Source: a virus
DNA length: 35,601 nucleotides
Reading direction: 5' to 3' (one strand)
Virus record (IMG/VR): IMGVR_UViG_3300034019_000188
Span: 1 to 35,601 of that record
Part shown: in pieces, positions 1,845 through 19,727 of the stretch
Position numbering within the stretch: position 1 is the first letter of the stretch
How the letters are laid out: each line of letters starts with the position of its first letter
Translations under genes and position numbers: made by a program
The notes under the pieces: generated by a model
The model's input: only the letters and a program-made list of their open reading frames with translations
What the model was told of the DNA's origin: nothing
The model's database searches: none

Positions 1845-4669
1845 TAAGAGAGCAAGCCTCCTGGGCGCTTCTGTTTAATCAATTCTTGCTGTACCGCAAG
1901 ACCAATCACCTTGCCGAGCTGGCTTGCCTGTCCAGGATCGCCCTGCACGCTACTACCGCCGGCGTCTACGTTCACCACCACGTTACCCATGCCACCAAAG
2001 CTGCCAGCAGGTGCGATACCACCGCTACGCCCAGGCATGAACAGTTCAGGACCACGCTCACCGACGAGGTAACCCTGACCAGCGGTAACGCTGCCGCCGC
2101 CAGCACGCTTAAACAAACCGCCAAGCAAACCGCCACCCGTGCCCGTGCCAGACATTGCACCGAACAAGGCAAGGTTGACAGCTACATCCAGCAGCTTGTT
2201 GGCAATGTTATTCAGCAAGTTGGTAGCAACCTCTTGCAGGCTCTTCGTGCCATCAATGGCGCCTTGGATAGCGCCAACAACACCGTCCTTAATGGACATA
2301 CCAATGTCGGCATAAAGCTGTTTAAGTTGAGTGGCAGCATCAATCTGTTGCTTGAGGGCGTTGTTGCGCTCTAAAAGTGCTTTGACTTGCCCTTCGTCCA
2401 ATCCTTTTGTATCTTTCGTTATTTGCGCAATCTGTTGCCTAAGCAAAACCTCTGCCTCATTGCCATTTATTTTTGCTTGCAGCAATTCGTTCTCTTCTTC
2501 TATAGTTTTGATTCTTTCAATGCCTGTCTCACGTTGCTGCAAGTCGAGCATCGCAAGTTCTTGTGCTGTTTGAATTTGGCTTTGAGCCAGTTGTTCACCA
2601 ATTTTGGCAATACCAAGCTGTTTCTCTTGTAGGGGTACAGAGCTTTGCTCAATAGCAAGGGCTTGATACAGAAGTTCAGTTTCTCGACCAATACCCTGCA
2701 GGCGAATCTCATCCTCTTTGTTTTTAGCCGAAGCAGCTTGACCTAGCAGACCCTGCAGTTGTGTTTGCTGCTGCAATAAACGAAGCTCACGAGTAAGCTC
2801 AGGCACTTGACTCTCGCGTGGCTTTTTATTCTTTTGCTTGGTCAGTGGATCTATGCCAACTCCTGAAGAGTCATCAAGATTCGATTGAGTTGTTGCCTCA
2901 GGTTTGAAATTACTAGGATTAAGACCTAATACTCCTCTTGCAAATTGTTGCTCTTCAGATATTCTTGTTTGCTCTGCTGCCATAAACGGCGACATCGCAG
3001 TCAGAGCCAAGGGTCCAACTACGGGTATTTGAAACAATGGACTTGATTTCGCCAATTTTTTTTGTCGCTCCTCTTCTTTTTTTTGCAGTGCCAACAAAGC
3101 TTTTCGCTGCCCCGCTTGTGCGCTGACAACTGTCTCACGAGTAGCGCCTTTGAATGCTGCTGCAGCACCTCCTGCTGCTCTGCGTTTCTGCAATTCTTCA
3201 ATACTTTTTGCTTCCCCAACAACGTTGCTTACATAGTTGATACCAGTGGTGACAATCCCAATGAGCGACAAAGCTCTTAGGCTTGCAGCTAAAGTATTAA
3301 CTAACGGCGCTGCTATTGCCGCAACACGTCCAGTTCCTGTAATACCTCCTTGAAGTAAAACCAATTTTGCGTTTCCCGTAAGTGCTGCTGCACCAGCCAT
3401 TGCTGTCTGGGCAGTCAGCAAAGCCATTGCACCCTTAAACAAAGCGGCTGCGCCAACTATCAACCCAATAAACTTTTTCAGTAACGTAATTTGAATAACT
3501 AGCTTGGTTACTTCAACAACTGCATCGAGCACAGGTTTAGGTAGTTGCCCAATACCTTGCACAAATTCAGCAATGCCGTTAGCAAGCGGCACAAGCTCCT
3601 CAATGAATCGAGACAACACTGGTAGCAACGTTCTGCCCAGCGACAACGCTAATAGCTCACCAGAAGACTGCAAAGTTTGCAGTTGTCCATTAAATGTTTT
3701 TAGGGATGCTTCAAAATCTTTTTGTACAGTACCTGCCGCTGCTGCACCACCTGCAGCAGCCTTAAGCTCTTCGTATTCCTTTTTATATTTCATCAGCGCC
3801 ATCAATGCCAATTTGGCTTCTTTGTCGCCAAATATCTGCGATAACTTAAATGTATCTTTGCCCGTGACACGAATCAATTCTTTGATTGCAGCATCCATAG
3901 GGTTGACACCCTTTGCCACTGCATCCTTCAGAACTTTTTCAATGTCTACACCAAATTTTTTAAAGTTTTTGACGGTCTCCGGTGCCGTCATTTTCAATAA
4001 CGCATCCGTCAGTCGTGTAGATGCCTCAGCAGCGCCGGGGGCATCTTTGCGAACCATCTGCATCATTGCCGCCAAGGCAACCGCGCCTTCTTTGCCTCGG
4101 ATGCCTAGTGATGTTGCAGCAGATGCAATGGTAGGCATGAACTGAGCCATGTCTTTCAGTTCAAATGCACCCGCCTTGCCAGCAAATGCCAAGGCGTCAA
4201 ATGTTTGTTTTAATTCATTTGGTCTAATCTTAAGTGCGCTTTGTAGCTGAAAACCAGTCTTAGTGACATCAGTCAATTCCGAGTTAGTTGCCACGGCAAC
4301 CTTCCCAAGAGTCTCCATTGACGCCACTGCGTCATTTAGCTTCAAACCCTGCGCCACAAGGTCTTTGACACCTTCGGCTAACACCGTGGGCGCTAGGTTT
4401 GTTTTACTTGGGGCAGACAACTGCTTAAGGCTTTCTGCTAGCTTGGTGATTTCCTTTTCGCTAGCGCCTGCAGTTTTGCCAATCTCACTTAAAACAGATT
4501 CAAACTGTGATGTTGTACGTACTATTTGTTGAAGAGCAAAACCTGCACCAAGAGTAGAAACAAGGCTTGCGATACTAGCCGCTGCACCTTTGGACGCCTG
4601 CTCAAGACGGTTTAATTCTTTGACCGCGCCGCCGGTCCTTACCTGTACGTCTACAACCGAAACAGCCAC
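1844..4669 (-). CDS. H: Tail tape measure protein
   Basis: 941 aa, the longest gene in the window. It begins at GTG with a good ribosome site (GGAGG) just upstream. The N-terminal ~330 residues match TP901-type tape measure proteins (QFESVLSEIGKTAGASEKE, LALMALMKYKKEYEEL). A hydrophobic stretch follows around residues 380-425 and a long glutamine-rich helical region around 625-800. The C-terminus carries the typical GERGPELFMPGRSGG and ends QELIKQKRPGG, as in lambda gpH-like proteins. It sets tail length and is ejected with the DNA. It follows the G/T chaperone pair, the canonical order. Confidence 0.95.
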   Translation of the reverse strand: MAVSVVDVQVRTGGAVKELNRLEQASKGAAASIASLVSTLGAGFALQQIVRTTSQFESVLSEIGKTAGASEKEITKLAESLKQLSAPSKTNLAPTVLAEGVKDLVAQGLKLNDAVASMETLGKVAVATNSELTDVTKTGFQLQSALKIRPNELKQTFDALAFAGKAGAFELKDMAQFMPTIASAATSLGIRGKEGAVALAAMMQMVRKDAPGAAEASTRLTDALLKMTAPETVKNFKKFGVDIEKVLKDAVAKGVNPMDAAIKELIRVTGKDTFKLSQIFGDKEAKLALMALMKYKKEYEELKAAAGGAAAAGTVQKDFEASLKTFNGQLQTLQSSGELLALSLGRTLLPVLSRFIEELVPLANGIAEFVQGIGQLPKPVLDAVVEVTKLVIQITLLKKFIGLIVGAAALFKGAMALLTAQTAMAGAAALTGNAKLVLLQGGITGTGRVAAIAAPLVNTLAASLRALSLIGIVTTGINYVSNVVGEAKSIEELQKRRAAGGAAAAFKGATRETVVSAQAGQRKALLALQKKEEERQKKLAKSSPLFQIPVVGPLALTAMSPFMAAEQTRISEEQQFARGVLGLNPSNFKPEATTQSNLDDSSGVGIDPLTKQKNKKPRESQVPELTRELRLLQQQTQLQGLLGQAASAKNKEDEIRLQGIGRETELLYQALAIEQSSVPLQEKQLGIAKIGEQLAQSQIQTAQELAMLDLQQRETGIERIKTIEEENELLQAKINGNEAEVLLRQQIAQITKDTKGLDEGQVKALLERNNALKQQIDAATQLKQLYADIGMSIKDGVVGAIQGAIDGTKSLQEVATNLLNNIANKLLDVAVNLALFGAMSGTGTGGGLLGGLFKRAGGGSVTAGQGYLVGERGPELFMPGRSGGIAPAGSFGGMGNVVVNVDAGGSSVQGDPGQASQLGKVIGLAVQQELIKQKRPGGLLS

Positions 4670-4694
4670 GGCGATACCTCCCTATAGAGTCAGT

Positions 4695-5227
4695 CTACCG
4701 TTTTGACTTTGCCTTATCCATTGCTTCTTTTTCGCGCTTGCCTTTTATCTCGTAGAAGGCTGCAAAATGAACAAACTCAGCGTCCGTCAACTCGCTACGC
4801 AAACGACTAACTGTCATCCCGAGCTTAGTAGCCAGGAAGAACTCAAAGAACAACCAAGAGTCTTCCTCTAATCGTTTTTTGCTTCATCTATATTGCCGTC
4901 ACCACCTAGCCCGAACAGGAACAGCTCTAAATCATTTAGCACACGTTCCGGCAGCTCTCGCTGCAGTTTGGCAGCATCAGCAGAGGCAAAGGCTTTAGTG
5001 CCATCTTCAAGCTCTGCCATTTGACATAGCATCTGCGTGCTGATATCCAATGCCTCTTCAGAACCAGCCAACGTGCTGGCACGCTTGCGGTCCGCTCGTG
5101 TGATGGGCTTGAAATAAAGAACCAGCACAGTTTCTCCAGCATCATTGGTGACGCTAAATTTACGGCGCTGGTTCAGATCAAAAGCGCCAGTGAGCAGGTC
5201 AACGGCGCGGGGTGTAGCAGCAGGCAT
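4695..5227 (-). CDS. GT: Tail assembly chaperone GT fusion (-1 frameshift product)
   Basis: Predicted 177-aa product: the first 118 codons of the G gene, then a -1 slip at AAAAAAC (4880-4874) into a 59-codon frame ending at TAG 4697-4695. The T part reads RLEEDSWLFFEFFLATKLGM and ends EAMDKAKSKR; it has no start codon of its own in a suitable place. It lies exactly between G and the tape measure gene, where lambda and most long-tailed phages make the same fusion. The GT protein is thought to bind the tape measure through G while T recruits tail-tube subunits. The slip site is read from sequence; frameshifting itself is inferred. Confidence 0.88.
4868..5227 (-). CDS. G: Tail assembly chaperone G
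   Basis: 119 aa. Acidic, helical protein (FKPITRADRKRASTLAG, LFLFGLGGDG) ending DEAKND at TAG 4870-4868. It follows the tail-tube genes and precedes the tape measure gene, the position of lambda gpG. It should coat the tape measure protein during tail assembly and is made in excess over the GT fusion. The stop codon lies two codons past the slippery heptamer, so the zero-frame product is the unshifted form. Confidence 0.87.
   Translation of the reverse strand: MPAATPRAVDLLTGAFDLNQRRKFSVTNDAGETVLVLYFKPITRADRKRASTLAGSEEALDISTQMLCQMAELEDGTKAFASADAAKLQRELPERVLNDLELFLFGLGGDGNIDEAKND
4874..4880 (-). promoter_or_regulatory. Programmed -1 frameshift slippery site
   Basis: On the minus strand the heptamer A AAA AAC is read in the G frame as GCA-AAA-AAC. 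This is a canonical X XXY YYZ -1 slip site. The zero frame stops at TAG two codons later, while the -1 frame stays open for 59 codons. I did not identify a clear downstream pseudoknot or stem, which some slip sites use. Confidence 0.85.
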
Positions 5228-13444: not shown

Positions 13445-14908
13445 TCAAGCTCCTGCTTCCTCGGCGGTATCTGCATCTTCTGGGTCTTCGCTTCCAGCAT
13501 TATCGCCCAGTCCACCAACCAATCGATCAGCCTGTTCAGCAGATTGTAAATCCAGCCCGCCATTAGAAGTTGCCTCCAGTTCCTCTTCCACATCAAAATT
13601 ATCGCCAAGGACATCGCCCTCGGCTAACTCACGCAGGAGGGTTTCTTGGCTGATGGTGCCAGCGGTGTAAAGCGATAGCAGGGCTTGGATGTCCTGCGGT
13701 TCAAGGCGTGCGCCAAGGAAGTCACGGTTGACGTAGGAGCTGCCGGCAGCGGTGGCGTTGCCGATGAATTGCGCATGAAACTGCAGGCAGTTATCAATGA
13801 GGTCTTGCACGTTCTGTGCAATCACCATCATGGTGCTATCACCCTGGCTACGGTCTAGCCGCTTCGCTTCTGCAGTTTCGGCGCTGAGCTTTTGCCCCAA
13901 GACTGCTGACAGCCCTAGCTCGTTGATCTGCTGTGCCAGTTGCTCTAGGCGGCGAAACTGTGCTTCAAAGCTCTTGCCCTGCGGTTCGATGTACTCCGCA
14001 CGACCATCAGCAGGAAATGCAATCGCCTCACCAGGACCGGCGCTTACTTCCTCTGCAGCAGACGGGAAACCATAAAACGCCAGCATCGGCACGGCGCTGA
14101 TGTGCAGTTGGTTGTCTAGGTCTGACTGGATCTGGTAGGTCTTGAGGTTTAGCTCGGCAATGTCCTCAAGCGGTGGGCGCGATTCAAGGAACCCATGCCG
14201 CTGGGCGTAAGCAACGCTGAAGGGGATTTCAGACAAGCTGGTCCGCCCTTCGTCTACCACGCTGAAATCGCCGGTAGCATTCTGCCGATGCAACTGGTAC
14301 TCACCAGGCGTAAGCACCCGCACCTGCTGCACTTCTTTCTCGCCGTAGATGCCGTCAGGTATCGTCACAATCTCTGACAGCCTGAGCTGCGTCAGGACTT
14401 GTTTGCCTTCTTGCTGTTCGGTACGCCAACCAAGGATCTGCCTTGGCGTGTACGTCACCCAGTAAGGTCTACCCCCATCAGACGGTGCATCCACCAAGAC
14501 ACCAACGTGCCCATAACGGACCATCTTGCGGGCTGTTTCATAAGTCCAGACGTTGAGGTCATTGCCTTGCAGGTCAACGTCAAACAACTGCTCACGGATG
14601 ATGTCGGCAGTGTCGTCAAGCCGGACAGGCTTGCGGGTTAGCATCCCAGCCATCATGCGCTCAAGGCGCTGATAAAAGGGCGGCACCACGCTACGAGCTA
14701 GGCGATTGTCATAAGACTCGTCCAGCTCGCGTGGTTCCTGCGGCAGGTAACGGCGATGCTTGCGGCGCATCTCATAAGTCCCGCCCAGCAAGTCTTCAAT
14801 CAGCACCCAATGTGGCTCTTGCGCGTACCACGATGTGTTGGCATCTTGTACGCGAATTACCTTGCGCTCAGCCGTAGGGCGATTGTAAAAGTTATAGCCT
14901 GAATACAT
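13445..14908 (-). CDS. Portal protein (DUF4055-type)
   Basis: 487 aa. Features of the DUF4055 portal branch: DNRLARSVVPPFYQRLERMM, GMLTRKPV, YGHVGVLVDAPSDGG, then FLESRPPLEDIAELN and LDRSQGDSTMM-like text in the stem/wing region. The C-terminus is acidic. The portal forms the dodecameric DNA gate at one capsid vertex and docks the terminase. It heads the head-gene block, preceded by the structured non-coding gap. Confidence 0.92.
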   Translation of the reverse strand: MYSGYNFYNRPTAERKVIRVQDANTSWYAQEPHWVLIEDLLGGTYEMRRKHRRYLPQEPRELDESYDNRLARSVVPPFYQRLERMMAGMLTRKPVRLDDTADIIREQLFDVDLQGNDLNVWTYETARKMVRYGHVGVLVDAPSDGGRPYWVTYTPRQILGWRTEQQEGKQVLTQLRLSEIVTIPDGIYGEKEVQQVRVLTPGEYQLHRQNATGDFSVVDEGRTSLSEIPFSVAYAQRHGFLESRPPLEDIAELNLKTYQIQSDLDNQLHISAVPMLAFYGFPSAAEEVSAGPGEAIAFPADGRAEYIEPQGKSFEAQFRRLEQLAQQINELGLSAVLGQKLSAETAEAKRLDRSQGDSTMMVIAQNVQDLIDNCLQFHAQFIGNATAAGSSYVNRDFLGARLEPQDIQALLSLYTAGTISQETLLRELAEGDVLGDNFDVEEELEATSNGGLDLQSAEQADRLVGGLGDNAGSEDPEDADTAEEAGA

Positions 14909-14937
14909 CTGGGGCCGCCTAGTTGGTAACAGTGTAA

Positions 14938-14971
14938 AGCCACAGGACTGGTCTTACCCAATCCTGCGGCT
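14938..14971. terminator. Strong hairpin upstream of portal gene
   Basis: Two 14-base arms (14938-14951 and 14958-14971) pair with two mismatches around a 6-base loop. A short T run (14971-14974) follows on the plus strand; on the minus strand only TTTAC follows. It could terminate or attenuate minus-strand transcripts entering the portal gene, or stop plus-strand transcripts. Confidence 0.45.
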
Positions 14972-14994
14972 TTTGCAACCCGACCATGGCCCAA

Positions 14995-15234
14995 CTAGTC
15001 GTACCCCATCTGGCCATTCCAGAACTCGTCTCGCCATGCCTGTTCCCGAGAGAACAGTAGGGAGGGCGAACCCTCCGTACTGCCGTCTGCAGCGGTTGCC
15101 TTGCCGGAATATGCCAAGCCCCGACCTACCACGCCGGACCCGATCCGACCAGACCGGACCAATGTCTGGATTCCAAAGAACCCAGCGGAGAGCCCCGAAA
15201 GGCTCAGCGCTGAGATCATCAGCCATTGCCGCAT
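14995..15234 (-). CDS. Possible small membrane protein within structured region
   Basis: 79 aa. The first 25 residues would be a membrane helix (LMISALSLSGLSAGFFGIQT) followed by Gly-rich and polar sequence ending WNGQMGYD. However, two double-hairpin elements lie inside it and a third lies upstream in a comparable local frame (LMSALRASALSAAFI). The apparent protein may be a by-product of conserved RNA/DNA structure. Presented as possible only. Confidence 0.35.
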   Translation of the reverse strand: MRQWLMISALSLSGLSAGFFGIQTLVRSGRIGSGVVGRGLAYSGKATAADGSTEGSPSLLFSREQAWRDEFWNGQMGYD

Positions 15235-15353
15235 CGCACCAGGCCACTTCCGTCCTAAGCAGACCGAACCCAACCCATTAAAGCCCTACCGCATCGGACC
15301 ATTCCATGACTGCCTAATGAAGGCAGCAGAGAGGGCCGAAGCCCTCAGTGCTG
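15040..15353. repeat. Three double-hairpin elements with compensatory changes
   Basis: Units at 15040-15082, 15166-15212 and 15310-15353. Each reads CTG-stem A-CAG-stem B-CTG; the CAG ends hairpin A and starts hairpin B. Stem A arms: CTGTTC/GAACAG, CTGGaTTC/GAAcCCAG, CTGCCT/AGGCAG. Stem B outer arms: CAGTA/TACTG, CAGCG/CGCTG, CAGCA/TGCTG. A symmetric mismatch follows, then an inner GC stem (GGAGGG/CCCTCC, GAGCC/GGCTC, GAGGGC/GCCCTC). On the minus strand the loop of units 1 and 3 is TTCG and unit 2 contains TTCGG. Stems differ while pairing is kept, so structure is selected. The gap 14909-15439 otherwise holds one hairpin and one doubtful ORF. Confidence 0.8.
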
Positions 15354-15439
15354 ACATCAGCTCTTGATCTTGCCCTGCCACTCAATACCGGATCTTGCCG
15401 CGATAAACCATAGCTGACCAATCCGGGCCGCATCTGGAC

Positions 15440-16036
15440 TTACACCACTTGGATGCCAGCAGTGAATCGCCCATGCTTGGGTCGCCAGTCGCCTAAGCCG
15501 ACCAGCTTACCAGCATCAATGGCAATCTCTTCGATGTCGCGCAGGTTCAATACATCAGGATCAAACTGCGCAGTAGCAACTAGGCTCCAGTTGCGGAACA
15601 TCGGCCTAGTGCGCATGACCTTAGCCATGCCAACCTTAACCCCAACCGTATGAGTGAACTCACCGCTAGCAAACATCTCGCTAAGCGTGTCGTCGTTGAT
15701 GTCAGTGGGCTTGCCCGGAAACTCAAGCGGTGCGTGCTCAGTAAAGAACATGCCGCACTTAGCTTGTGGCCCGCGCTTTGACTTCTTAGCGCCGTTGATG
15801 AACACGGCTTCGAGCACGTAGTCGGGGATGACCAGCTCATCACGAAAGCGGTAGAGCCCAGCAAGCCACTCAAGCCTTGCAATCTCGTCGTAATCAGCGT
15901 CAGTCTTCTTCCGCTTGCTGCTGACCGCTTTCATCGCCTTGGCGTAGGTATTTCGCGGATCGGCTGTTTGCCCGTTGTGGCACAGCAATGGGCTCCCGCC
16001 CGAAATTGTGATCTGGATCGTAGTCAGGTCGGACAC
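15440..16036 (-). CDS. Conserved phage protein of unknown function
   Basis: 198 aa from GTG 16036; an ATG at 16075 would add 13 residues. I prefer the GTG because the conserved part begins at TTIQITISGGSPLLCHNGQT. Other marks are KAVSSKRKKTDADYDEIARL, NGAKKSKRGPQAKCGMF, MRTRPMFRNW and GLGDWRPKHGRF. I have the impression of a phage family seen near recombination or packaging genes, but know no activity. The 5' part overlaps the HNH gene by at least 137 bases, which is unusual here. Confidence 0.72.
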   Translation of the reverse strand: MSDLTTIQITISGGSPLLCHNGQTADPRNTYAKAMKAVSSKRKKTDADYDEIARLEWLAGLYRFRDELVIPDYVLEAVFINGAKKSKRGPQAKCGMFFTEHAPLEFPGKPTDINDDTLSEMFASGEFTHTVGVKVGMAKVMRTRPMFRNWSLVATAQFDPDVLNLRDIEEIAIDAGKLVGLGDWRPKHGRFTAGIQVV

Positions 16037-16376
16037 GTTGTAATTGCGATGGAATAGAGAGTGATGGCGCCGCAACGCTGGTGTGCTGCACTTGCTTGCG
16101 TGGATCTAACTTGAATCGCTGTTGCCTGACTGAATTGGTAATGCCGTCGTGGCAGATTGAGCACAGGGTCAAAAGATCCGTGATTTGCTCATTGCCAAAC
16201 GAGGGGTAACGGTAGTCCGGCGGTCCAGCGTTTTTGTGATGCACTTGCAAAGATGACCAGCTCAGTTCTTCCAGTTGCGCAGCAGTAATGCCGCACCCTT
16301 GGCAGGTGTGCTGATCGTGCTCTAGGCGCTGTTGGCGCTTGCGCTGCCATGATGCTGATCTGTAATACGCCTCCAT
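15900..16376 (-). CDS. HNH endonuclease
   Basis: 158 aa. Zinc-binding pairs Cys25/Cys28 (HTCQGCG) and Cys72/Cys75 (LCSICHDGITN), with catalytic-type HH at residues 46-47 in LQVHHKNAGP. The domain ends near residue 85; the rest is low-complexity and overlaps the next gene. HNH proteins beside terminase genes are needed for packaging in several cos-type phages, which may apply here, but a homing-type nuclease is also possible. Its promoter region is shared with the divergent ribbon-helix-helix gene. Confidence 0.85.
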   Translation of the reverse strand: MEAYYRSASWQRKRQQRLEHDQHTCQGCGITAAQLEELSWSSLQVHHKNAGPPDYRYPSFGNEQITDLLTLCSICHDGITNSVRQQRFKLDPRKQVQHTSVAAPSLSIPSQLQRVRPDYDPDHNFGREPIAVPQRANSRSAKYLRQGDESGQQQAEED

Positions 16377-16380
16377 TTGC

Positions 16381-16438
16381 GGTATGGTGTGGGTCGATCC
16401 GGTTGGATCGTGCTCTGATCATACCACAATCACACCAT
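16381..16438. promoter_or_regulatory. Divergent control region between HNH and RHH genes
   Basis: The 60 bases between the two starts contain inverted elements: ATGGTGTG (16384-16391) against CACACCAT (16431-16438), GGTATG (16381-16386) against CATACC (16420-16425), and GATCC-GGTT-GGATC in the middle. These look like operator sites, probably for the small repressor encoded to the right. No clear -35/-10 pair was identified. Confidence 0.5.
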
Positions 16439-16580
16439 GGCGCAAGGCACCCGCGTTCAGCTCGTACTCCCGCAGTCAGTTGCGGATCTGCTCAAAGCAA
16501 AAGCCAAAGCAGAAGGGCGCACCGTTTCCAGCCTTGGCTCGTATTTGATTGAGTCAGCGCTCAAGCTGCAGTCAGTGTAA
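16437..16580 (+). CDS. Ribbon-helix-helix DNA-binding protein
   Basis: 47 aa on the plus strand inside the minus-strand late region. A beta strand (GTRVQLVLPQS) is followed by two helices (VADLLKAKAKAEGR and VSSLGSYLIESALKLQ), the CopG/Arc ribbon-helix-helix layout. It faces the HNH gene across inverted repeats, as expected for an autoregulating repressor. Its stop overlaps the last 20 bases of the convergent cyAbrB gene. Confidence 0.78.
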   Translation: MAQGTRVQLVLPQSVADLLKAKAKAEGRTVSSLGSYLIESALKLQSV

Positions 16581-16878
16581 CGCTGTTGCGAGTTACCTTA
16601 ATTTTGAACTCATCGCCGGGCTTAAAACCCATCTCCTGCACGTAACCCTCACCGATGGAGAGCTTGCCGTTGAACTGCACCTTGGTCTTATAGGTCAGGC
16701 TACGACCGCGCTTGCCAGGCACGTTCATCTGCAGCCCCTTGGCTTCAAGGAGCGCCTCATAAAACTGGGTAAAGCATACCTTGTCATTTTTGACGTAACC
16801 ACATTCACGAACGAGGTCTGATTTATTCAGATCGCTCAGCTCTTTAACTTTGTTGATGAGATCTTGACCGACGAGCAT
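16561..16878 (-). CDS. cyAbrB-family transcription regulator
   Basis: 105 aa from ATG 16878; longer in-frame starts run into terL. The N-terminal helix-rich part (KVKELSDLNKSDLVRECGY, FTQFYEALLEAKG) and C-terminal AbrB-like swapped-hairpin part (VQFNGKLSIGEGY, GFKPGDEFKIKV) match cyanobacterial AbrB-like proteins (Synechocystis Sll0359/Sll0822 type) over the full length. In hosts these control carbon/nitrogen and other genes. A phage copy beside terL suggests regulation of host or late genes. The family is, to my knowledge, restricted to cyanobacteria and their phages. Confidence 0.9.
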   Translation of the reverse strand: MLVGQDLINKVKELSDLNKSDLVRECGYVKNDKVCFTQFYEALLEAKGLQMNVPGKRGRSLTYKTKVQFNGKLSIGEGYVQEMGFKPGDEFKIKVTRNSVTLTAA

Positions 16879-16942: not shown

Positions 16943-18292
16943 TCAATAAAGTCTGATGCCCGTTGCCCGTCCAGCTCCTGCGTGCAGCGGGTTGAACTCA
17001 CGCCAGACCAAGTACCCCAAGGCGTCGTTCATGTGGTCAAAGCCTGCATCCTTGTCAGGCTCTCCCTTGTCTGTGTAGCACTGCAGCTCCAAGCACTCGG
17101 TCAGTCTCTTGCATTGCGGCGCGACCTGTAACCGGACTTGCCCTTTGCCGTTTTCCAGCAGAGCCTGAACAGCAGCCACCCGATCACGAACGGGAGGATT
17201 AGCCCTGGGTGATTGGTTGGACATGCCATAGGACTCAAGGATTGCAATGTCGGTCTGCGTTGCATTGGTGCTGCGATTGCCGCCGCTGGCGTCTGGGTAG
17301 ATGTAAATACGGCGATCCGCGTATCGACGACGGATCTCGGCAGCCAGCGCGTCGGTGTCATGGGCGCCGGAGATCTCGTCGATGATCAGCAGGCCATTGC
17401 CAATGCGAACGCCGATCACTGCACTCATATTGCCGACGTTAAAGTCAATCCCAATGCGGATTGGTTCGCGGTCAGTATCAGGCAGGTCAGGTTGTACGTG
17501 CTTGGTGCGGTCGAAGCGGTCATAAACCTGCCCGGTGGTGAGGTTGACGAACTCGCCGTCTAAATATGCACGCAGCAAGCTGGGGTCGTAGTTGGCTTCA
17601 AGACGCTCAATAAAGTCGGGCGGCAGGTGGGGATTATCAGCGGTGCGCATCTTGATCAGATGCCGATCAGGTCTTGCCCTTGCGTCATCACTGCCAAAGG
17701 TATTCCACATCCAGCGGAAGCCCTCAGGTGTTGACGCTGCGCCAAACTGCCTGACGTTGCCGGAGCGTAAGCGACCAAGGATTTTAGGAAATGCCTTGTT
17801 GGCAATGCTTGGTGTGACAGTATCAATTTCGTCAGCCAAGACCCAGGCAAGGTTCAAGCCGATGATGCGTGACCAGTTCTCAAATGATCGGCACAGGATT
17901 TTGGTATCACCGCCTGGCAGGTGCAGCATGTACTCAGGCAACGGTGACGCCCTGAAGGTATAAGGAATATCGTATGACTCAAGGAATTGCTCGAAGTCGT
18001 TCTGCCAAATGTCACGGATCAGTGGTCCGGTTGGTTCCATGACCAGACCGATGAAGCCTTGATTAGCAGCGGCAAGGGTTACGGCCTTGGCACATAGCGC
18101 ACGGGTCTTTCCAGCACCGTAACCAGCAGAGATGCCAAGGATCTGAGTGCTGCTGTCGTCTACGAAGGCAAGTTGCCCTGGGTGCAGGTCGGTGCGGATG
18201 CGGGCTAAGAGTTCTGGTACATCAACATCGGCATCGCCATGACCAATTTGCTGAAGGACACTGCCTGTTGGCGCTGCAGCAAGAATGCTCAC
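16943..18292 (-). CDS. terL: Terminase large subunit
   Basis: 449 aa, complete. ATPase domain: Walker A GYGAGKT at residues 57-63 and Walker B ending LADEID (152-157). RNase H-like nuclease domain: Asp283 in GIDFNVG, Asp334 in YPDASGG and Asp419/Asp423 in FDHMNDALGY. It pumps DNA through the portal and cuts it. ATG overlaps the small-subunit stop (ATGA). Confidence 0.96.
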   Translation of the reverse strand: MSILAAAPTGSVLQQIGHGDADVDVPELLARIRTDLHPGQLAFVDDSSTQILGISAGYGAGKTRALCAKAVTLAAANQGFIGLVMEPTGPLIRDIWQNDFEQFLESYDIPYTFRASPLPEYMLHLPGGDTKILCRSFENWSRIIGLNLAWVLADEIDTVTPSIANKAFPKILGRLRSGNVRQFGAASTPEGFRWMWNTFGSDDARARPDRHLIKMRTADNPHLPPDFIERLEANYDPSLLRAYLDGEFVNLTTGQVYDRFDRTKHVQPDLPDTDREPIRIGIDFNVGNMSAVIGVRIGNGLLIIDEISGAHDTDALAAEIRRRYADRRIYIYPDASGGNRSTNATQTDIAILESYGMSNQSPRANPPVRDRVAAVQALLENGKGQVRLQVAPQCKRLTECLELQCYTDKGEPDKDAGFDHMNDALGYLVWREFNPLHAGAGRATGIRLY

Positions 18293-18612
18293 GAACAGAG
18301 TTGCGCCAGTTTGGCTGCGGTGTTAATGGCACCAAGGGCAATGTGATACTGCCCAGCCCGCCTGGCTTCCATCTGCAAGGTGCTGCACTGGGATAGGAGA
18401 TCAGCGATCATCTGCGGGCGTTCAATATCCCAGTCAGCCTTAAGCATCTCGCGTGCCAACTTGAGGTATTGATCGACCGTGCGGTCACCAACCCCCCAGT
18501 TCTCGGAGGCAAATCGAATGCAGTCCGAGCGTCTACCGCCATTTGCGATGATGCGTGCAAAGCGGTTAGCGCGGTCGATTGTTTCTTGTTTAGTGCCTCT
18601 TTGGGCAGCCAT
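18289..18612 (-). CDS. terS: Terminase small subunit
   Basis: 107 aa. N-terminal helix-turn-helix-like part (TIDRANRFARIIANGG, RFASENWGVGDRTVDQYL) then two oligomerisation helices. Size, HTH and the 4-base overlap with terL support a DNA-recognising small terminase subunit. It shares one base with the upstream methyltransferase stop. Confidence 0.82.
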   Translation of the reverse strand: MAAQRGTKQETIDRANRFARIIANGGRRSDCIRFASENWGVGDRTVDQYLKLAREMLKADWDIERPQMIADLLSQCSTLQMEARRAGQYHIALGAINTAAKLAQLCS

Positions 18613-19727
18613 TAGAACGCCTCTTGCTGCTCGGTGAAGTGTTGATCAGATGGTACGCAGACGGCGGTGTTGCCGGTGAAGTCTTCCCAGCGCTTGACGA
18701 TGACGTCGCAGTAAGCGGGGTCGAGTTCTATTAAACGGGCGTGGCGATGCTGACGTTCGCAGGCGACAAGGGTGGAGCCGCTGCCGCCAAACGGATCAAG
18801 AACAATCCCTTTAGCTTTTGCCAAGCACCACTCAAGAAGCTCAACAGGTTTTTGAGTTGGGTGGTCTTTTTTGTAAGAGGTAACTGAAAGGCGAAAGATT
18901 TTAGCAGGGCCTGGAATGTTAGTCCATGCAAGCTCACACATTGCAAGCGAGAAGTCTTCTGGCTGTTTTTTATCCCAAACGTAAAAGCACTGAGCAGGTG
19001 GAAGCCCGAAGTAATTGCCACCCCAAATAATTGAAGCTGTGGTTATGGAATTAAAGAAAGCTAATGTTTGGTCGTCAATCGGCTGGGCGTCCCAGTCTTT
19101 CTTCTGATGCTTTTGCCTTACAGGATTTGCACTAATGCCGATTCCATATGGAGGATCAGTAAGCAAAAGTTCCGCCTTCTGACCATCCATCAACCGCTCA
19201 ACGTGCTGGATGTTGGTGCTGTCGCCGCAGAGGAGGCGGTGATTGCCAAGGATCCAGAGGTCGCCTGGCTTGGTGATTGGTTCCTTTGGTGGCTCGGGGA
19301 CGTCATCTGGATCGGTCTTGCCCTGCTCCGGCTCTAGCACCTCGGCTAGTAGCTCGTCATCTTCAAACCAGGGTGTCAGGTCATGCTCTTCGCTGAGCTG
19401 CCGAAGCATCTCGTTGTCCCATTCGCTGAGGTCGCTGGAGCGGTTGTCAGCGATGGCTAAACCTACTTTTTCGTCTTCGCTAAGGCCAGTACGGCGTACA
19501 GCGATTAGCTCATCGCCTTCGGCTTCGATGATGCGGACTTTATTGATGCCTGCTTTTTTAGCGCCTTCGACGGTGCCGTTACCGGCAAGGATGCGACCGT
19601 CTTCGTCAATGACGATGCTGCGGGCGGCACCGTAACGCTTGAGGGATTCAGCAATTAGGGCAGCAGAGCGATCTGTCCGCTTGCGGGCATTTTTGTGATC
19701 TGACTTGAGGTTATTGATTGATGTCAC
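18612..19727 (-). CDS. ParB-like nuclease domain / DNA methyltransferase fusion
   Basis: 371 aa from GTG. Residues ~1-100 are ParB/Srx-like (SLKRYGAARSIVIDEDGRIL, AGNGTVEGAKKAG). The second domain is an N4/N6 amino-methyltransferase: GNHRLLCGDST, DPPYG at 191-195, HPTQKP at 289-294 and the SAM-binding DPFGGSGS at 311-318, so catalytic motif before SAM motif (beta order). It probably methylates phage DNA against host restriction. No cognate restriction gene is adjacent. ParB-methylase fusions are common next to terminase genes. Target sequence cannot be read. Confidence 0.92.
   Translation of the reverse strand: MTSINNLKSDHKNARKRTDRSAALIAESLKRYGAARSIVIDEDGRILAGNGTVEGAKKAGINKVRIIEAEGDELIAVRRTGLSEDEKVGLAIADNRSSDLSEWDNEMLRQLSEEHDLTPWFEDDELLAEVLEPEQGKTDPDDVPEPPKEPITKPGDLWILGNHRLLCGDSTNIQHVERLMDGQKAELLLTDPPYGIGISANPVRQKHQKKDWDAQPIDDQTLAFFNSITTASIIWGGNYFGLPPAQCFYVWDKKQPEDFSLAMCELAWTNIPGPAKIFRLSVTSYKKDHPTQKPVELLEWCLAKAKGIVLDPFGGSGSTLVACERQHRHARLIELDPAYCDVIVKRWEDFTGNTAVCVPSDQHFTEQQEAF

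Follow-up and report, generated by a model that had tools for sequence, protein, structure and literature searches.

The intergenic region upstream of the portal gene in the 35,601-nt stretch of cyanobacterial virus DNA analysed here (the window; IMG/VR record IMGVR_UViG_3300034019_000188) can be read with high confidence as an array of guide RNAs that belongs to a VIPR system carried by the phage, in which one guide is directed against the portal gene of rival viruses, the carrier's own portal is mismatched to it, and the cassette and a protected portal sequence seem to be passed on together, by co-transfer or by homing. VIPR, a class of RNA-guided system known for only months, has been proposed as an ancestor of CRISPR (PMC13142463, doi 10.64898/2026.04.26.720920, a 2026 preprint). 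According to the main text of that preprint, it combines Vipr RAMP proteins with vrRNAs that carry YNNGG repeats and a structured 3′ tail, the NN bases read the DNA at a skip of one base, and the system is characterized by vrRNAs of about 100 nt that are bound by Vipr and by sequence-specific DNA binding; the activity demonstrated there is repression, not cutting.

The region belongs to the upstream gene, vipr. The profile of the vipr product matched PDB 36pp chain 36pp_D, 'SUSP1 Vipr protein', with E 2.1e-45, and this match to a solved Vipr identifies the region as the vrRNA array of a VIPR system. The product was 33% identical to the Felixounavirus homologue L188, its AlphaFold model had a pLDDT of 90.1 with Csm3/Cas7 as top fold matches (Z 11.0), and the C-terminal GLGDWRPKHGRF, corresponding to the G-rich loop of the RAMP fold, was conserved in the alignment. 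In L124:2582-3211, L133:2921-3550 and L150:3001-3621 a stop codon falls within the matched vipr stretch; in L133 and L150 it precedes the conserved GTG/ATG start, and the gene itself is probably intact.

The adjoining HNH gene was matched to PHROG HNH endonucleases with E values down to 1.9e-10. It occupies the same position beside vipr in about 100 loci, as is characteristic for a vap accessory gene, and the residues C25, C28, H46, H47, C72, C75 and H76 (CxxC, HH, CxxCH) are practically invariant. The 137-nt overlap of the two genes in different frames (15900-16036) is a long dual-coding stretch, conserved among about 100 loci even where identity drops to about 65%. Relatives of vipr were also present in about 60 bacterial genomes (L193-L250), with HNH in the same position in about 25 of them, mostly Alphaproteobacteria and also a Leptolyngbya; the distribution of the HNH-vipr pair is thus wider than the cyanophages. 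On the opposite strand, a small ribbon-helix-helix (RHH) gene was present in 83 of 103 vipr loci of the cyanophage clade versus 0 of 80 portal-relative loci, and its product is likely the regulator of the operon. A different ORF, 16349-16552 (+), was rejected as the divergent gene, and the small RHH gene lies in another frame. The cassette consists of RHH regulator, HNH nuclease, vipr and array and spans about 14909-16580.

Within the array, the first-pass annotation had described three double-hairpin units at 15040-15082, 15166-15212 and 15310-15353, and both the coordinates and the folds held when re-checked in the sequence. On the minus strand, which is the strand of the main neighbouring genes, each unit reads CAG-stem B-CTG-stem A-CAG, and the TTCG-type loops (minus strand) and the symmetric C.C or CU/UC mismatch of stem B were seen in the units as noted before. 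Stems A and B are real, but the description with two hairpins was incomplete: a third hairpin, P0 (e.g. GCTGC-AGACG-GCAGC), precedes stem B, which gives a chain CTG-CAG-CTG-CAG in most copies. CAG and CTG segments are common to P0, B and A, so that P0 and the outer part of B are mutually exclusive.

The compensatory changes noticed between the three copies were found again, balanced across dozens of related phages. Among 59 distinct units, a set partly selected by regular expression, stem B was paired in 95.5% of cells and 69 double-sided changes were counted versus 12.8 in shuffles. A test set of 177 places 3′ of vipr-type genes was chosen by the left arm of stem B alone, not by regular expression; here the right arm paired at 9 or 10 of 10 positions in 136 places, compared to 7 of 152 upstream controls (0 at 10/10) and 0 of 40 antisense controls. 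The pairing of the units is not chance. Stem A and P0 likewise vary between copies with pairing kept, and in the alignment with related phages the stems are maintained by covariation while the region is wholly absent from the closest relatives without the cassette.

A degenerate stem B pattern was present in 24 of 2.9 million viral contigs, nearly always adjoining a vipr relative; relatives of the vipr gene carry one to six or more units. Fungal mitochondrial double-hairpin elements consist of two adjacent hairpins, and the units had been compared to such organelle elements and to mobile repeats. A mobile element of this type that was multiplied in the intergenic region would fit the repetition, the divergence and the variable copy number of the double hairpins. 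However, they are confined to vipr loci, always lie on the vipr strand and stand in a fixed register with a 5-nt lattice, and no copies were seen in the other places examined, so this comparison was abandoned and we give the mobile-repeat explanation next to no credence. Rfam covariance models (hammerhead, HEARO and others) gave no match at the gathering threshold or E<=1. A hammerhead reading of unit 2 was discarded, as CUGAUGA is present but the GAAA segment is absent. The small ORFs across 14954-15281 had no family match and a 5-nt lattice does not fit a pattern of codons, and a protein-coding reading was therefore also dropped; the ~530 nt between the gene ending at 15440 and the portal start at 14908 hold no credible protein. 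A literature search retrieved no account of double-hairpin elements in phages.

The space between the hairpin units is filled by this lattice, YNNGG on the minus strand, in four tracts directly 3′ of vipr (Table 1). The count of GG at lag 5 was 21, compared to 10.0 +/- 3.0 in shuffled sequence and a maximum of 10 in 680 control windows. The TGGAATGG flank described beside two of the units does recur, but it is not a separate flank and belongs to the 5-nt periodic tract. Hairpins and lattice are in register: stem-A ends fell at offset 0 or 1 in 116 of 121 cases, stem-B starts at one offset in 73 of 89, and the distances from hairpin to hairpin proceed mostly in steps of five (72, 77, 82, 87, 92). 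In 48 of 53 loci, a leader hairpin motif lies on the vipr stop codon or close to it and shares the register of the repeats. At distant vipr loci of bacteria and other phages, YNNGG arrays were present in 58 cases, mostly on the same strand as vipr, and none of those examined had double hairpins with shared CTG/CAG. Near the distant vipr array of L183 (phage contig 2926133686, about 4350-4550), a palindrome GTGCAGACGTCTGCAC recurs several times.

The hairpins are therefore recurrent parts of the vrRNA array, and the informative part is formed by the tracts between them. The structured element that follows the tracts of VIPR systems has its probable counterpart in stems that are conserved, covary and keep register with the tract. 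Stem A, replaced by the leader at tract 1, lies directly ahead of every tract, and stem B with P0 directly behind every internal one. Judging from this arrangement, stem A or the leader would serve as 5′ cap for the tract it precedes and stem B with P0 as 3′ tail for the tract it follows, an assignment that yields as many caps as tracts. The CTG shared by a tail and the next cap is a likely processing junction, and the terminator-like terminal hairpin probably marks the end of the last vrRNA. Four vrRNAs would result, each a YNNGG tract bounded by hairpins. A small RNA had been among the roles first considered; this suggestion survives in that a guide-RNA (vrRNA) array fits, with transcription presumed, but the hairpins are not free-standing.

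Table 1. Features of the cassette and its flanks in the window (strand as given; positions count from the first nucleotide).
Feature	Position	Strand	Remarks
Introgressed portal 5′ end	14761..14908	(-)	about 147 nt; 65% identity to nearest cassette-less phage, 98% beyond
Own portal codons at guide 4 site	14765..14800	(-)	mismatched, 19/24
Terminal array hairpin	14936..14974	(-)	16-bp stem; fold -29.4 kcal/mol, z -8.2
vrRNA tract 4	14979..15038	(-)	12 repeats; guide vs portal motif IEDLMQGTYGMR
Unit 1	15040..15093	(-)	P0 15079-15093, stem B 15055-15082, stem A 15040-15057
vrRNA tract 3	15099..15163	(-)	about 13 repeats
Unit 2	15166..15223	(-)	P0 15209-15223, stem B 15183-15212, stem A 15166-15185
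vrRNA tract 2	15224..15308	(-)	17 repeats
Unit 3	15310..15361	(-)	P0 15350-15361, stem B 15324-15353, stem A 15310-15326
vrRNA tract 1	15363..15432	(-)	YNNGG repeats
Leader hairpin CTGCTGGCATCC..GGTGTAAGTCCAG	15434..15462	(-)	just before tract 1; overlaps vipr stop codon
vipr	15440..16036	(-)	GTG start, 198 aa; RAMP/Cas7-fold protein, phrog_4652
HNH nuclease gene	15900..16376	(-)	158 aa; candidate vipr-accessory protein; overlaps vipr start by 137 nt
Ribbon-helix-helix gene	16437..16580	(+)	47 aa; divergent from HNH-vipr; Pfam RHH_5 E 2.7e-11
Short introgressed stretch, other flank	16561..16625	(-)	3′ end of AbrB-like gene

For the analysis of the code, about 175 guides were decoded from 53 loci. 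Strong matches (local score 18 or more) were obtained for 27 guides at a skip of one base, versus 0, 0 and 1 at skips of 0, 2 and 3 and 0 in shuffles; the database scanned comprised mainly the neighbourhoods of vipr and portal genes, and targets elsewhere would be missed. The skip-3 match, of L109, was set aside, because three skipped bases correspond to the array period and the match probably comes from a copy of its own array that was left unmasked.

The guide of tract 4 (guide 4) was decoded as AT GA GA CT AT CA GG AC TA GG AT CG. At a skip of one base it matched the portal at 24 of 24 positions in L035, L059 and L131 and at 23 of 24 in the nearest relatives without the cassette, while other skips and shuffles stayed at background level. 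The full 24-base pattern occurred in 74 viral contigs, in every one in the portal gene, at one site, in codons for IEDLMQGTYGMR; among the 49 target contigs with 1.7 kb of upstream sequence, 48 were without vipr. The cultured cyanophage KBS-S-2A matched guide 4 at 22 of 24 positions. The match of the own portal was lower than that of all 80 relatives, and for other portal-targeting arrays, too, the carrier's own portal matched worse than most relatives. In arrays next to the portal, the last guide is in most cases directed at nt 57-381 of that gene, with targets on both strands; no portal target was found for the last guides of L128, L131, L154 and L173.

No targets of guides 1-3 were found in the sequences scanned (mainly vipr and portal neighbourhoods, and viral contigs). 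Two viral contigs hit by a 9-dinucleotide core of guide 1 were judged chance, the flanking dinucleotides being mismatched and the phage unrelated; guides 2 and 3 had no exact core match, and KBS-S-2A and S-H1 gave nothing above background. In a second phage group (L132-L172), the last guides are directed at sibling-phage genes that border the cassette on one side or the other, and not at the portal (e.g. L134:3922, L163:59, L170:2361), which is the same logic with a different neighbour gene.

Portal relatives at 95-97% identity are without everything from 14909 to 16562, and in these cassette-less relatives the upstream gene ends 32 bp before the portal. The cassette thus has no counterpart in phages that are otherwise about 97% identical, and the target is intact in alleles without the element and altered in carriers, the pattern of a homing element. 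The same comparison bears on the proposal that the region is a structured 5′ leader, or a terminator/antiterminator, of the portal mRNA. Its position directly upstream of the portal on the same strand and the terminal hairpin would suit such a function, but close relatives carry the portal without the array, and other phages have this array ahead of different genes. We consider the leader proposal very unlikely as the main role; the array may have a secondary regulatory role. No evidence of a packaging or pausing signal was found in the region.

Identity between the window and the close relative L003 is about 93-100% across the alignable packaging and head genes; the exceptions are the cassette, the portal's first 147 nt or so (65%) and a stretch of about 60 nt at the other flank. 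The carrier L115 is about 74% identical to the window elsewhere, but within 14770-16600 the flanks, HNH, vipr and the last guide are mostly 93-100% identical and the other guide tracts differ. Change-points between carrier portals and relatives were determined by maximum likelihood. They were located at portal nt 147 in the window and 129 in L118, where the guide target is 108-144, at 378, 369 and 374 in L111, L117 and L121 (target 336-381), and at 246 in L123 compared to L124 (target 211-253); the change-point of L114 was unstable or ambiguous. Among 52 cassette-less pairs no comparable drop of identity was present in the portal. Introgression into the portal hence stops at the guide's own target site, in few independent events (about four target sites).

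Variable gene content was observed in two further cases. The relative L005, which has no vipr, carries an unrelated endonuclease VII/HNH-like gene (4462-4971; phrog_1035, E 1.6e-13) at the same intergenic site before the portal, which suggests that nuclease genes have a hot spot here. In the window, a second site of variable cargo at about 18250-19700 was not aligned to L003; one gene at 18612-19727 joins ParB-like and DNA methyltransferase domains.

The location of the boundaries at target sites suggests RNA-guided homing, or at least that a guide and its protected target are transferred jointly. In the proposed mechanism, Vipr would bind the tract and only the NN bases would be read against DNA, with one base skipped per step. 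Guide 4 reads codon positions 1 and 2 of the conserved portal motif, so that synonymous changes at the third position would give rival phages no escape. Its target is the portal of related phages without the cassette, the host phage's own portal being mismatched there, and an attack at this site, by repression or by a cut of the HNH partner, would harm the rival. Should the DNA break, the cassette-bearing genome would serve as repair template, the cassette and the portal up to the break would be copied, and the recipient would gain the protected portal allele.

How the boundaries arise is the point on which explanations differ. We see an even chance that the cassette is an RNA-guided homing element, in which the last vrRNA would direct Vipr and HNH to break the sibling portal at a distance of a few hundred bases from where the cassette inserts, followed by carrier-templated repair. 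A reading to which we assign a substantial but somewhat smaller probability is that the array only binds and represses, that it is spread by ordinary homologous recombination, and that selection keeps recombinants with the protected portal 5′ end, as others would target themselves. Repression without cutting is what the main text of the VIPR preprint reports, and the self-mismatch and the co-transfer fit this reading equally; yet it predicts neither so tight a boundary, which in several arrays lies inside the target or a few nt beyond it, nor the conservation of an HNH partner whose metal-site and HH residues are intact. Without any cut, recombination at conserved motifs could also place boundaries at target sites, as could selection keeping guide and protected target together, and such selection is the main rival to homing. 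A DNA break at the guided site with repair from the carrier would, from the genome comparisons, be the best explanation of the boundaries.

The one-nucleotide skip code of VIPR was here reproduced independently, from sequence alone, in a distant phage group, and a new kind of target was encountered, a neighbouring structural gene in sibling phages. The genomic evidence that guide, nuclease partner and protected target move together would link RNA-guided interference to selfish homing, and this link is directly testable.

Among known systems, the SUSP1 type II VIPR, as described in the main text of the preprint (PMC13142463), shares with the present cassette a RAMP-like Vipr protein (about 20 kD), YNNGG repeats in tandem on the strand of vipr, structured tails, a 1-nt-skip code with the skipped base at the codon wobble position, and targets in competing mobile elements. 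Unlike in that description, double-hairpin separators with shared CTG/CAG and an HNH partner occur here in a phage-borne system, the target is the portal of sibling phages, and the own target is mismatched and co-transferred with the cassette. The combination of HNH and tails sets the cassette apart from the preprint's main text, but may already be one of its types I-VII. In contrast to fungal mitochondrial double-hairpin elements, the units are not dispersed and are part of a guide array. The RAMP fold is shared with Cas7/Csm3 of Class 1 CRISPR (type III and VII effectors), the best structural matches with Z about 11, whereas here CRISPR repeats and a cas operon are absent and the pairing is non-contiguous. 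Free-standing phage homing endonucleases are known for intronless homing and marker exclusion in T4 (review PMC2988022) and include the cyanophage enzyme F-CphI (PMC6083498). As here, the nuclease gene adjoins its target gene, flanking DNA is transferred along, and the target is intact in relatives without the cassette and altered in carriers. Unlike with a protein homing endonuclease, the sequence putatively cut would here be chosen by a guide RNA through Vipr, changes in the NN bases would retarget the system, and the guide would be rewritable when its target drifts.
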